Of a stretch of DNA of 64,000 nucleotides, positions 5,761 to 10,911 are shown one piece after another. Numbering within the stretch: the first letter of the stretch is position 1; every line of letters starts with the position of its first letter. The stretch is from an uncultured Alphaproteobacteria bacterium. GTDB lineage: Bacteria; Pseudomonadota; Alphaproteobacteria; HIMB59. A program made the position numbers and the translations under genes. A model generated the notes under the pieces. That model saw only the letters and a list, made by a program, of their open reading frames with translations, had not been told where the DNA came from and ran no database searches. The stretch spans positions 116,612-180,611 of the forward strand of contig CACDYZ010000001.1 in assembly GCA_902557145.1 (NCBI GenBank). The letters are read 5' to 3'.

Positions 5761-7362
5761 TTATTTCCCAAAAATTCCAATTTTAACTTCATAGTCTACA
5801 GCAACACTATAATCAGGATCATCGTCACTATCTACCATCAACTGACCTGTTTTAGACAGTAGTCTATGACAGTCACGCGTTAGATGTCTTAATTTTACTT
5901 TTTTGCCTAAATTAGAATATCTATTTGCTATATCCTCTATTGCTTTTAAGGCAGACTGATCAATCACCCTTGATCTTGCAAAATCAATGATAACTACCTC
6001 TGGATCTTTTGAAGGTTTAAATATATCCAGAAAACTGTTTGTTGAGCTAAAAAATAAGGGACCCTCTATTTCATAAACTTTAGCTCCACTCTCAGTGGTA
6101 GAAGGTCTCTCCACAGCATTAATCCTAGATGCTGACTTCCAAGCAAAAACTAAAGCAGATACAATTACACCAACGACTACAGCTATAGCTAGATCTTCAA
6201 GAACTGTCACAATAGTTACTAAAATTATTACCAAAGCATCTGATTTGGGTACTACAAATAATAATTTTAAAGAATTCCAAGCAAACGTTGCAAGAACAAC
6301 CATAAACATCACTCCTACTAATGCAGCTATGGGAATTAATTCGATATAAGAGGAAGCAAATAAAATAAAAATCAATAAAAATAAAGCTGCTGACACCCCT
6401 GACATTCTAGTTCTCCCTCCTGATTTAACATTTATCATAGATTGACCTATCATTGCGCAACCACCCATGCCTCCAAAAAAACCAGTCACAGTATTAGAGA
6501 TACCTTGAGCTAAGCACTCTTTACTAGCTCCTCCTTTTTTATTTGTAATCTCTCCTACCAAATTTAATGTTAATAAGCTTTCAATTAATCCAATAGCTGC
6601 CAATATAACTGCGTAAGGAAATATTATTATTAATGTTTCTATATTTATAGGAACCATTGGAATTGAAAAAGATGGAAGGCCACCAGCAACACTTGCTAAA
6701 TCACCAACTCTAGGTATTGGAATATTAAAACTTATCACCAACCCTGTGCTTAATAAAATAGCCACTAGAGTTGAGGGAAATACTTTTGAAAATTTAGGTA
6801 ATATCCAAATTACAATCATCGTTATCACAACGATACAATAGGAATATATTAGAGTATTACCTGACATCCAAACAGACTCACCAGCTGAGTTGATTGTTTT
6901 AAATTGATTTAATTGAGAGATACCAATTACAATAGCTAGTCCATTTACAAATCCAAGCATTACTGGTTGAGGGACCATTCTTATAAATTTTCCTAATCGA
7001 AATATTCCAGATAATATCTGAAGTATTCCCATCAATACTACAGTAGCAAATAAATACTGCGCACCATGGTCAACAACTAGGGAAACCATTACAACAGCTA
7101 AGGCTCCTGTGGCACCTGATATCATCCCTGGACGGCCTCCAATTACTGCAGTTATTAAACCGACAATAAAAGCTGCATAAAGTCCAGAAAGAGGGGTGAC
7201 ACCTGCAACAAATGCAAAGGCTATTGCTTCTGGCACTAATGCGAGGGCAACGGTTAAGCCAGATAGAATCTCAATTCTAAATAATGAAAAAGATGGCCCT
7301 TCTTCAGGTATATAGTCTTTAACCAAAGAATTTGCAAATGATGATATATTTGTACTTTTCAT
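5761..7362 (-). CDS. SulP family inorganic anion transporter with C-terminal STAS domain
   Basis: GLTVALALVPEAIAFAFVAGVTPLSGLYAAF; C-terminal STAS-like VVIIDFARSRVIDQSALKAIE. Confidence 0.92.
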   Translation of the reverse strand: MKSTNISSFANSLVKDYIPEEGPSFSLFRIEILSGLTVALALVPEAIAFAFVAGVTPLSGLYAAFIVGLITAVIGGRPGMISGATGALAVVMVSLVVDHGAQYLFATVVLMGILQILSGIFRLGKFIRMVPQPVMLGFVNGLAIVIGISQLNQFKTINSAGESVWMSGNTLIYSYCIVVITMIVIWILPKFSKVFPSTLVAILLSTGLVISFNIPIPRVGDLASVAGGLPSFSIPMVPINIETLIIIFPYAVILAAIGLIESLLTLNLVGEITNKKGGASKECLAQGISNTVTGFFGGMGGCAMIGQSMINVKSGGRTRMSGVSAALFLLIFILFASSYIELIPIAALVGVMFMVVLATFAWNSLKLLFVVPKSDALVIILVTIVTVLEDLAIAVVVGVIVSALVFAWKSASRINAVERPSTTESGAKVYEIEGPLFFSSTNSFLDIFKPSKDPEVVIIDFARSRVIDQSALKAIEDIANRYSNLGKKVKLRHLTRDCHRLLSKTGQLMVDSDDDPDYSVAVDYEVKIGIFGK

Positions 7363-7381
7363 TACTTATTAAAATTAGATA

Positions 7382-8302
7382 TTAAGAAAAATTTATAAAT
7401 TTAGAGAATTCTTCGTTATTTTTTTCAAATTGATCAGGTATTTTTTCACCAAATTTTAAATTTTCTAAATCTATGACTTTATAAAAATCTCCTCTTAGCT
7501 TGTCCCATTTATAAAATCCGTAATAAACAAGCATCACATTGTTTACAAATGAATTTATCCATTTTTCTAAATCTTCATTTGAAAGTTTAATTTTTTCAAA
7601 TTTCATATGATTAGTTATTTCTTCTTTTAATTTCGCATGAGACTCTGCATAACTTGTCTCAGTTTTGCTGTCAGGGTTAGGAGTATGTTTAGGGAAATTC
7701 TTTCTAATGACAATATTAATAAACCTATTTCTCATATAACTTGTTTCTGGAAGAGTAGATTTATTTAATATCATCCATCGGTGATATTGAATTTGAAAAG
7801 CTAGTGCTTGACCATCAGTCGTATAACGATAGTTATCTTTGAAGTTTTCAATTTGCAAATTATTTTGTTGATCGGAATTTTCAATTTTAAAAATTGCTTC
7901 ATATATAAGCTCAGAGGCGTCATCTAGGACCTTACTATCAAGATTTTTTGGCGCCGATTTTTTAAATGCTACAGCTAGTGATATTAAAAAAGCATTTTTT
8001 GTTTCAATAGTTTCAAAAATATTATGGGCTAGGCTTATTGCTGAGGAAATATCAGATAAAAAATCTTCTTCTTTATCTCTCCATATGAATTCTAAAGGAT
8101 GACTGTCAAATATAGGATTTAACATCACTTTATTATAAATAGAATTATATTCCTCTTGACTGGCAATTTGGTTTTGAATCTCTGGGTAAGAATAAATTTC
8201 TTTTAAAGATAAAGAAAATGTCTCAAGTAGTTTTTTTTTGTCTTTAATTGGGTAGTCATTATTAGACCATGTTTCAATAGTTGCTGGGAATTTGTTATAC
8301 AT
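7382..8302 (-). CDS. Hypothetical protein, 306 aa
   Basis: Long ORF with ordinary composition; family not recognised. Confidence 0.65.
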   Translation of the reverse strand: MYNKFPATIETWSNNDYPIKDKKKLLETFSLSLKEIYSYPEIQNQIASQEEYNSIYNKVMLNPIFDSHPLEFIWRDKEEDFLSDISSAISLAHNIFETIETKNAFLISLAVAFKKSAPKNLDSKVLDDASELIYEAIFKIENSDQQNNLQIENFKDNYRYTTDGQALAFQIQYHRWMILNKSTLPETSYMRNRFINIVIRKNFPKHTPNPDSKTETSYAESHAKLKEEITNHMKFEKIKLSNEDLEKWINSFVNNVMLVYYGFYKWDKLRGDFYKVIDLENLKFGEKIPDQFEKNNEEFSKFINFS

Positions 8303-8398
8303 ATAATCTTTAAGTTGCAGAATTTAGCTAATTAATCCAATTTTATCAACTAATTTCATGTAATTGTAATTATCCAAAAACAATGGTATTAAGGATTT

Positions 8399-8479
8399 AT
8401 GGATACAAACAAACCAAAACCTGATTGTGGATGTTCTTGCTCATGCTGTTGCACTTGTGGCGACGGTTGTTGTCAGTAA
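8399..8479 (+). CDS. Cys-rich micro-ORF, 26 aa (MDTNKPKPDCGCSCSCCCTCGDGCCQ)
   Basis: ATG to TAA, 9 Cys in 26 codons, aagga 3 nt upstream. GC-richer than flanks. Below the ORF-track length cutoff. Confidence 0.55.
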   Translation: MDTNKPKPDCGCSCSCCCTCGDGCCQ

Positions 8480-8631
8480 ATAATTTTTAACAGAACAACT
8501 ATTGCTAAAATAAAACCAAATACAATATCTACATATTTACCTTTCATCTTAAACATTAAGAAAAAAGAAAATAAAGCTAAGCTAATCACTATAATGCTTG
8601 CAAGATTTGCTACAAAAGAAGAGGGTTCCAT
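8473..8631 (-). CDS. Small hypothetical membrane protein, 52 aa
   Basis: Hand translation: MEPSSFVANLASIIVISLALFSFFLMFKMKGKYVDIVFGFILAIVVLLKIIY*. Follows the Anbu gene by 3 nt. Confidence 0.55.
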   Translation of the reverse strand: MEPSSFVANLASIIVISLALFSFFLMFKMKGKYVDIVFGFILAIVVLLKIIY

Positions 8632-8634
8632 ATC

Positions 8635-9360
8635 TTAATCTTCCCATTTAAAGCGATCGAAAGATTTAAAAATTTCAAATATGCCTTTTTCCCATTGTTT
8701 TGAAATATATTGATAATCCTCATCATTGATTTCAAGAGACTGCCGATAAACTATTTTTGATAAATTATTTTTATAAACCACCAAGTCGATAGGTGGGCCG
8801 ACAGATAAATCTGCTTTCATTGTGCTATCCATACTTATCAATGCGCACCTGGCAGCATCACCTAAATAGGTATCTGACTTTACTACTCTATCTAATATGG
8901 GTTTGCCGTACTTAATTTCCCCAATTACAAGATAGGGTTTGAACTCACTAGACTTAATAAAATTTCCTTGAGGATAAACCAAATAAAGATCTGATTCTTG
9001 ATTTTGTATATGCCCACCAACAATAAATGTTGATCCTAACTCCAGAGTTACCTGATTTATGCCATCTGGAGAAGAGTGTTGAACTGTCAGTCTTCCAATA
9101 TATTTTGCAATTTCATTGAGGTTGTAAAGATTATTTAAATTATTCCCATTAGTGGGGTCTTCTAAGTCTTTACTAATTGAATTAAAAACAGCTTGAGATG
9201 TTGCCAAATTACCAGATGTTAAAATAACAATATTTCTATCAATACCATTGTGGACATACATTTTTGTGTAAGAGTTATAATTATCTAAACCCGCATGTGT
9301 CCTTCTATCTGAGGCAAAAACCATTCCTTCATTAACTTTAATACCCACACAATAGGTCAT
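8635..9360 (-). CDS. Proteasome-type protease, Anbu (bacterial proteasome homologue) family
   Basis: MTYCVGIKVNEGMVFASDRRTHAGLDN...NIVILTSGNLA, typical of Anbu; Thr-2 as potential nucleophile. Confidence 0.88.
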   Translation of the reverse strand: MTYCVGIKVNEGMVFASDRRTHAGLDNYNSYTKMYVHNGIDRNIVILTSGNLATSQAVFNSISKDLEDPTNGNNLNNLYNLNEIAKYIGRLTVQHSSPDGINQVTLELGSTFIVGGHIQNQESDLYLVYPQGNFIKSSEFKPYLVIGEIKYGKPILDRVVKSDTYLGDAARCALISMDSTMKADLSVGPPIDLVVYKNNLSKIVYRQSLEINDEDYQYISKQWEKGIFEIFKSFDRFKWED

Positions 9361-9434
9361 AATTTAATTAAATAGCTTATTTCAAAAAAATACAAACGAA
9401 TATTTACATATTAGCAATCTAAACAATGCATAAC

Positions 9435-9453
9435 CAGTAATTGGCAATTACTG
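9435..9453. promoter_or_regulatory. Operator-like inverted repeat between divergent Anbu and ATP-grasp genes
   Basis: CAGTAATT-GGC-AATTACTG, perfect 8-bp arms with a 3-bp spacer, 12 bp before the GTG start at 9466. Confidence 0.5.
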
Positions 9454-9465
9454 TATTTTCTAAAT

Positions 9466-10911
9466 GTGTCTATAAGCTGGAACAACTATAACTCTAAAAA
9501 TAGTTACGATGAGTATCTTACACCTGATAGAAAACTCAGAAAAGAAGCAAAAGTAATTTCAAAAATATTAAATAACTATTCAAGTAAAGATTTAGCTAGT
9601 ATCGAAAACAATTGTCAAAGTACTATTAGTTCCCGGGGTATTAATTTCAAAGTTTACTCCGCTGATAAAAAAGCTGCAGAAGAAAAAAAATGGCCTTTAG
9701 ATATTATTCCAAGAATAATATTAAGATCACAGTGGCTTAAAGTAAGAAAAGGGCTAATTCAAAGATGTAAGGCCTTAAACCTTTTTATAAATGATGTTTA
9801 TAATGACAAAAAAATTTTTAAGGATAAAGTTTTACCTTATGATTTAGTTTTTGACTCAAAAAATTATTTAAAACAATGTGAAGGATTAAAACCTAAAAGA
9901 AAAATTTGGTCTCATATTTCTGGAATAGATTTAATTCGAAATATTAATGGTGAGTTCCTGGTGTTAGAGGATAATTTACGAGTTCCTTCGGGAGTGTCTT
10001 ACATGTTAGAGAATAGAATGGTAATGAGTGAGGTTTTTCCAGAGCTATTTACACGTTATAGAGTTTCTTCCATCAATCAGTATTGCAATAGATTATACCA
10101 TTGTATGTTAGATGCTATTCCTTACAAAAAAAATAACCCAACTATGGTCGTACTTACTCCTGGCGTCTACAACTCTGCTTATTTTGAACATTCTTTTTTA
10201 GCTCAACAAATGGGAATAGCATTGGTGGAGGGAAAGGATTTATATGTGGAAAATGATAAAGTTTATGTAAAGACAGTTAAAGGAGGATTAAGGGTAGATT
10301 GCATTTATAGAAGAATTGATGATATTTTTTTAGATCCTAAAACTTTCTACAAAGAGTCACTTTTAGGAGTTGCTGGTTTGTATAAATCTTATAGTAAAGG
10401 AAACGTTGGTCTTATCAACGCCCCTGGAAGTGGAGTGGCTGATGATAAAGTTATTTATTCTTATGTTCCAAAAATTATTAAATATTACTTAGATGAAGAC
10501 CCTAAACTCAATCAAGTGGAGACTTTTTTGTGTAATGATAAAAAACAAAGAGACCATGTCATATCAAATTTATCAAAAATGATTGTTAAACCTGCAGATG
10601 GGTCAGGTGGTTACGGAATTTTAGTAGGACCCAAAGCCACAAAATCAGAACGAGATTCATACGCGAGAAAGATACTACATAGTCCTAGAAATTATATTGC
10701 TCAACCTTTGGAAATTTTATCGACCACACCTACGCTTCAAGGAAATTCCATAGAACCAAGACATCAAGATTTAAGACCCTTTATATTATCTGGTAAAGAG
10801 ACTTATGTAACTATGGGAGGTTTAACAAGAGTTGCCCTAAAAAAAGGAAGCACCATTGTGAATAGTTCTCAAGGTGGAGGCTCTAAAGACACTATGGTAG
10901 TTGAGGATTAG
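9466..10911 (+). CDS. Circularly permuted ATP-grasp type 2 family protein
   Basis: 481 aa; LVLEDNLRVPSGVSYMLENR, MIVKPADGSGGYGILVGP, RHQDLRPFILSG; GTG start. Confidence 0.88.
   Translation: MSISWNNYNSKNSYDEYLTPDRKLRKEAKVISKILNNYSSKDLASIENNCQSTISSRGINFKVYSADKKAAEEKKWPLDIIPRIILRSQWLKVRKGLIQRCKALNLFINDVYNDKKIFKDKVLPYDLVFDSKNYLKQCEGLKPKRKIWSHISGIDLIRNINGEFLVLEDNLRVPSGVSYMLENRMVMSEVFPELFTRYRVSSINQYCNRLYHCMLDAIPYKKNNPTMVVLTPGVYNSAYFEHSFLAQQMGIALVEGKDLYVENDKVYVKTVKGGLRVDCIYRRIDDIFLDPKTFYKESLLGVAGLYKSYSKGNVGLINAPGSGVADDKVIYSYVPKIIKYYLDEDPKLNQVETFLCNDKKQRDHVISNLSKMIVKPADGSGGYGILVGPKATKSERDSYARKILHSPRNYIAQPLEILSTTPTLQGNSIEPRHQDLRPFILSGKETYVTMGGLTRVALKKGSTIVNSSQGGGSKDTMVVED

Follow-up and report, generated by a model that had tools for sequence, protein, structure and literature searches.

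A contig of an uncultured alphaproteobacterium of the marine order HIMB59 carries, within the stretch of 64,000 nucleotides analysed here (referred to as the window), a reading frame for a product of only 26 residues, nine of which are cysteine. This locus raises the question of whether so short a frame is a gene and, if so, what its product may bind and do. The source assembly amounts to 1.19 Mb in 29 contigs and is 84% complete. The frame and the features that surround it are listed in order of position:

7382-8302, minus strand: 306-aa protein, left neighbour, divergent; no Pfam, NCBIfam or PADLOC match
8364-8369, plus strand: putative -35 element TTGTAA, in an upstream block conserved in the genus
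8387-8392, plus strand: putative -10 element TATTAA, in the same conserved upstream block
8399-8479, plus strand: gene of the 26-aa Cys-rich micropeptide MDTNKPKPDCGCSCSCCCTCGDGCCQ, read from the sequence; homologs present in 36/52 genomes of the genus and 74/111 of the sister family; pN/pS 0.065
8473-8631, minus strand: 52-aa predicted membrane protein, convergent; shares 7 nt with the 3' end of the peptide gene
8635-9360, minus strand: Anbu (proteasome-related); the top PDB hits are structures of Anbu, with E as low as 1.7e-59
9466-10911, plus strand: circularly permuted ATP-grasp protein; PF14403, E 1.1e-153

Coding status of the cysteine-rich frame

The gene starts with an ATG at 8399-8401, ends with a TAA at 8477-8479 and is 81 nt long, and its nine Cys are encoded by both TGT and TGC codons, all as described in the original prediction. 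The frame had also been called richer in GC than its surroundings, which holds at 43% for the whole frame and 51% for the Cys core, compared with 25.5% in the 300-nt flanks. The presence of nine Cys in 26 residues is unique among the open stretches of the window; the runner-up contains seven and lies antisense to a SulP gene.

Genes for the peptide are present in 36 of the 52 genomes of the window's genus and in 74 of the 111 genomes of the sister family (f2) of the order HIMB59 (AEGEAN-169), and they are confined to two of the eight genera of this order. The order comprises two families, HIMB59 and GCA002718135, and the single-cell genome AG-891-G06 has been used to rebuild a genome of the HIMB59 family (PMC10734472); we infer that the window's family (f1) is HIMB59 and that f2 is its sister. 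The named contigs that carry the same peptide come from single-cell genomes of marine bacteria, which bear the label Alphaproteobacteria or Pelagibacteraceae. At the loci retrieved by tblastn, all nine Cys are retained in 36 of 36 genus copies while TGT and TGC replace one another, and the frame, whose conservation in close relatives bore directly on the original prediction, is kept both in the genus and in the second family.

Copies from the two families follow the pattern CGC-S-C-(S/P)-CCC-(T/A)-C...CC, with nine Cys, and the typical f2 form is MKNQNPNPPKCGCSCSCCCTCEGGDCC. The residues P6, P8, C10-G11-C12-S13-C14, C16-C17-C18, C20, G21 and C24-C25 are invariant in both forms, and S15 and T19 are nearly so. 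The peptide is 26-27 aa long across both forms, contains neither His nor aromatic residues and conserves its CxC motifs, and its short, polar N-terminus places nine residues ahead of the first Cys. Among 20 sampled f2 copies, 18 have all nine Cys; the two exceptions (L039, L052) contain a frameshift after the core in one case and a stop in the other, and these defects may reflect either faulty assembly or decay of the gene.

Counted by codon position (1, 2 and 3), the extra nucleotide states number 3, 3 and 35 among 26 distinct sequences of f1 and 5, 4 and 20 among 15 sequences of f2; this table was gathered with a pattern that demands the Cys core, so that the evidence for invariant Cys was taken from the tblastn loci instead. 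Over 210 genome pairs, the peptide gene has a pS of 0.503 and a pN of 0.033 (ratio 0.065), and the adjacent anbu gene in the same comparison has a pS of 0.533 and a pN of 0.033 (ratio 0.062), which indicates that the synonymous sites of the peptide gene are as free as those of a normal neighbour and that the protein is held, not the DNA. The pN of the Cys core is 0.009. The 11-residue core CGCSCSCCCTC is identical in f1 and f2, and 11 of its 33 bases differ; both core serines are encoded by TCN in f1 and by AGY in f2. This synonymous freedom, together with an identical core built from different codons, excludes a DNA repeat, in agreement with the earlier argument for selection on Cys, and the frame is a genuine protein-coding gene.

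A Cys-attenuation leader, or a chance frame over a DNA repeat, could also be short, rich in Cys codons and upstream of other genes, and is scarcely credible here. Both in the window and at the compared loci, the peptide gene is followed by a convergent gene; the first downstream gene of the window that shares its direction, the one for the ATP-grasp protein at 9466, begins about 1 kb away beyond genes on the other strand. The original prediction had judged a leader the less likely explanation, and it was right to do so because the next gene is convergent. The predominance of synonymous changes and the single protein core that the two families encode with differing codons argue against a chance frame.

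In the window, the putative -10 element follows the putative -35 element after 17 nt and precedes the ATG by 6 nt, and most of the genus shares this arrangement (TTGTAA, approximately 17 nt, an AT-rich -10-like hexamer, approximately 6 nt, ATG). The bases "aagga", previously pointed out upstream of the start, are present in the sequence and overlap the putative -10 element. Shine-Dalgarno-like bases occur in only two of 30 distinct genus upstream sequences, the window being one of the two, and "aagga" is therefore probably not a conserved ribosome-binding site. The conserved promoter-like element suggests that the message of the peptide gene is leaderless, or nearly so, in the window's genus. 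Many f2 copies have AGGT shortly ahead of the ATG instead.

Anbu and ATP-grasp neighbours in the window's genus

The gene for the 52-aa protein lies to the right of the peptide gene in 20 of 20 genus loci compared, adjoining it in most and standing approximately 0.3 kb further away in four. On the left side, a methyltransferase gene replaces the 306-aa gene as the neighbour in most of the genus. The SulP transporter gene and the 306-aa gene (5761-8302 of the window, minus strand) are found there in some genomes only, and in the genomes that do not have them, which are the majority, the methyltransferase gene directly adjoins the peptide gene.

Anbu is found in 37 of 163 genomes of the order, every one of them in the window's genus, where anbu and the peptide gene co-occur strongly. 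The Anbu and ATP-grasp genes of the window (8635-10911) are divergent, and the other two usual partners of Anbu operons are not nearby; a search of this assembly, 84% complete, gave no alpha-E (PF04168).

The Anbu/ATP-grasp system has been proposed to tag proteins via amide bonds (PMC6376114), and the adjacency of the genes, their co-occurrence in the genus and the C-terminal Gln of most genus copies would fit a peptide that serves as the substrate or tag of this system. Such a role is very unlikely. The C-terminal Gln is not conserved, and the peptide is encoded in 74 genomes of f2, a family from which Anbu is absent, which indicates that Anbu is not needed for the peptide. Moreover, the pair is separated naturally in two genomes: G011 has kept the peptide and 52-aa genes, from beside which anbu and the ATP-grasp gene have been lost, whereas G012 has kept the anbu, 52-aa and 306-aa genes and has a different small ORF at the expected place of the peptide. 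An obligatory function of the peptide with Anbu and the ATP-grasp protein is contradicted by the sister family and by these two separations, and the adjacency is best read as shared locus history. The small ORF of G012 is hydrophobic, comprises approximately 59 codons and lies between the 52-aa and 306-aa genes (L140:2402-2581, plus strand).

Zinc-uptake locus of the sister family and the predicted metal

In the sister family, the peptide gene lies beside the genes for zinc uptake. The order in locus L034 is trmL, the pirin gene and the peptide gene, then convergent genes for an 84-aa protein, a WD40 protein, a COG0523-type GTPase and ZnuA, and beyond ZnuA, divergent from it, genes for ZnuC, ZnuB and a Zur-like Fur protein. 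The side of ZnuC/ZnuB on which the peptide gene stands does not vary among the 20 f2 loci sampled, and the adjacency of this gene to znu persists in f2 loci without pirin or without the block of COG0523, WD40 and 84-aa genes. In 62 of 62 f2 genomes with both genes on one contig, the peptide gene and znuB have the same orientation and are 1.9-5.2 kb apart; in the other 12 f2 carriers, the two are on separate contigs, or znuB was not found in the draft assembly.

Several further properties of this locus were observed. The WD40 and 84-aa genes (L034:6101-7403, minus strand) are present or absent as a block with the gene of the COG0523-type GTPase, and the 84-aa protein, in which a CHEPDCPPIET motif occurs, matches nothing in Pfam or NCBIfam. 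Sister-family ZnuA (L034:8443-9516, minus strand) contains an extended Asp-Asp-His repeat that presumably forms a loop for binding metal and that varies enough to escape searches filtered for low complexity. Between znuA and znuC there is a palindromic box of the Zur type, TGTTATAATATAACA. One Zur-type box is present in this intergenic region in the sampled sister-family loci, and two boxes 17 bp apart are present between znuA and znuC in several genomes of the window's genus (L141, L142 and L146-L150). A box search allowing up to 2 mismatches gave matches at znuA/znuC only and none adjoining the peptide gene, which by this criterion is not a member of the Zur regulon.

In light of these arrangements, we incline to the reading that the peptide is a cytosolic, metallothionein-like micropeptide specific to the order HIMB59, which would be expressed from its own promoter and would buffer or store zinc. 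The metal binding proposed in the original prediction gains support from the ZnuABC/Zur linkage in f2 and from the order having no metallothionein of the SmtA type (PF02069 is absent from 163 order genomes, and the control, Synechococcus elongatus, was detected). For the same two reasons zinc is favoured; we infer that zinc(II) is the most likely metal and Cu(I) the next. Against this reading, the window's family has the peptide beside Anbu and the zinc locus elsewhere (G000:C16), and the peptide gene has no Zur box. Additionally, inheritance alone can keep genes in a fixed order even when they have no function in common. The zinc locus occurs without the peptide in other f2 genera and in some genomes of the same genus, and the complete genome G001 has Znu and no peptide, which indicates that the peptide is dispensable for zinc uptake.

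A copper(I) thionein, a thiolate peptide that would hold surplus Cu(I) in the manner of mycobacterial MymT, is unlikely but is the chief alternative, because a CxC-rich and His-free composition is also typical of copper thioneins and fits the peptide, and because zinc genes are not near it in the window's family. The fixed linkage to zinc uptake in the sister family argues against copper, and a copper gene beside the peptide was recognised in neither family. The same cluster of Cys could instead transfer electrons or metal to a partner, in the manner of a thiol redox or metallochaperone peptide and not of a buffer. Nine thiols, an unusual CCC run, a strictly conserved order and a core that tolerates little change (pN 0.009) are consistent with such a peptide, which we nevertheless consider quite improbable: a conserved partner gene common to both families was not found, and the sequence contains no CxxC redox motif of the thioredoxin type.

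Substrates of MNIO enzymes are often Cys-rich metal peptides, and a peptide as short and as rich in Cys as this one resembles the precursor of a RiPP of the methanobactin or bufferin type, in which an MNIO enzyme modifies the Cys. The chance that it is one is very small indeed, given that PF05114 was detected in none of 11 genomes tested, nine of which carry the peptide gene at 90% or better completeness, and that the controls were detected. Furthermore, no modification enzyme was recognised nearby, and only nine residues lie ahead of the first Cys.

With its nine thiolates, its short polar tail and its lack of His and aromatic residues, the peptide has the appearance expected of a metallothionein with a single cluster. 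Under the zinc-buffering reading, the nine thiolates would enclose the bound ions in a single cluster, such as M(II)3Cys9 or, if copper were the metal, a Cu(I) cluster. M(II)3Cys9 is the stoichiometry of the metallothionein beta domain, and the nine Cys of the peptide match it. PflQ2MT forms a Zn3Cys9His cluster (PMC7387436). The peptide would buffer zinc stoichiometrically and keep a small reserve of it, receiving the zinc imported by ZnuABC and handing it on to zinc proteins, and its expression would come from its own promoter and would not be under the Zur box between znuA and znuC. A precedent comes from marine Synechococcus, in which Zur acts as a repressor of znuABC and an activator of bmtA, allowing zinc to be banked (PMC9337993). 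A bolder proposal is that of a new bacterial metal-thiolate family, characterised by the CCC-centred CxCxCxCCCxC core, a cluster unlike those of the known metallothionein domains, a role as a chaperone or bank devoted to zinc and paired with ZnuABC in ocean bacteria that live at very low zinc, and a leaderless message; we advance it tentatively and think it rather unlikely.

Family membership and comparison with known systems

The peptide has no match in Pfam, NCBIfam, PADLOC, PHROGs, the PDB, the GenBank phage collection or plasmids. A profile search of 387 genomes of the class gave weak partial matches only (best E 0.005), and a search for the Cys pattern in 399 genomes of the phylum yielded chiefly TGT/TGC repeats along with sporadic single matches, two of which appear unrelated when translated. 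A pattern scan of genome contigs, which demanded GAYGG and thus detects only the form of the window's family, returned 34 stretches of marine single-cell genomes and one poly-Cys ORF of Dictyobacter.

The broad traits of metallothioneins are present, in that the peptide is very small and Cys-rich, contains CxC motifs and has no aromatic residues; a genetic link to metal homeostasis is found in the sister family and not in the window's family. Membership in PF02069 (SmtA/BmtA) was considered and rejected, since there is no profile match, the length is about half and His is absent from either form. The bacterial metallothionein family has His ligands and zinc-finger features (PMC10612145, PMC7387436). 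Two HIMB59 genome papers do not mention metallothionein, and the only traits of this kind that one of them lists as distinguishing are an iron/zinc chelator and the transport of trace metals (PMC10308909, PMC10734472). The titles and abstracts found on SAR11 and metallothionein concern other subjects. The peptide is put forward as a candidate order-restricted micro-metallothionein outside PF02069, for which no earlier description was found in the partial literature searched.

HIMB59/AEGEAN-169 bacteria are widespread in the surface ocean and have streamlined genomes. Judged from its sequence, the peptide is probably among the smallest metal-binding, metallothionein-like proteins of bacteria; if the assignment is correct, a conserved metal-thiolate peptide of 26-27 aa would rank among the shortest bacterial metallothioneins, and metal storage would be tied to zinc uptake in these bacteria, as with BmtA in marine Synechococcus. 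The peptide is short enough for gene callers to miss, which suggests that similar micropeptides are overlooked elsewhere.

The copper thionein of Neurospora crassa is about 25 aa long and contains seven Cys. Compared by description, it resembles the HIMB59 peptide in its similar length, single-cluster size, CxC motifs and lack of His, and it differs in being eukaryotic and in the number and spacing of its Cys. The copper metallothionein MymT is about twice as long as the peptide, which, unlike MymT, matches no family and is encoded at a zinc locus in f2. The two share a bacterial origin, a richness in Cys and a motif unlike those of other bacterial metallothioneins (PMC10612145). With the SmtA/BmtA type (PF02069; BmtA of Synechococcus, PmtA/PflQ2MT of Pseudomonas), the peptide has in common that it is a small, Cys-rich bacterial peptide, and its nine Cys equal in number those that form the Zn3Cys9His cluster in PflQ2MT (PMC7387436). 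However, at 26-27 aa it is about half as long as members of this type, and it has no His, contains a CCC run and has no match to the profile. The peptide gene differs from Synechococcus bmtA in having no Zur box, and it resembles that of Synechococcus WH8102 in its tie to Znu/Zur zinc control (PMC9337993).
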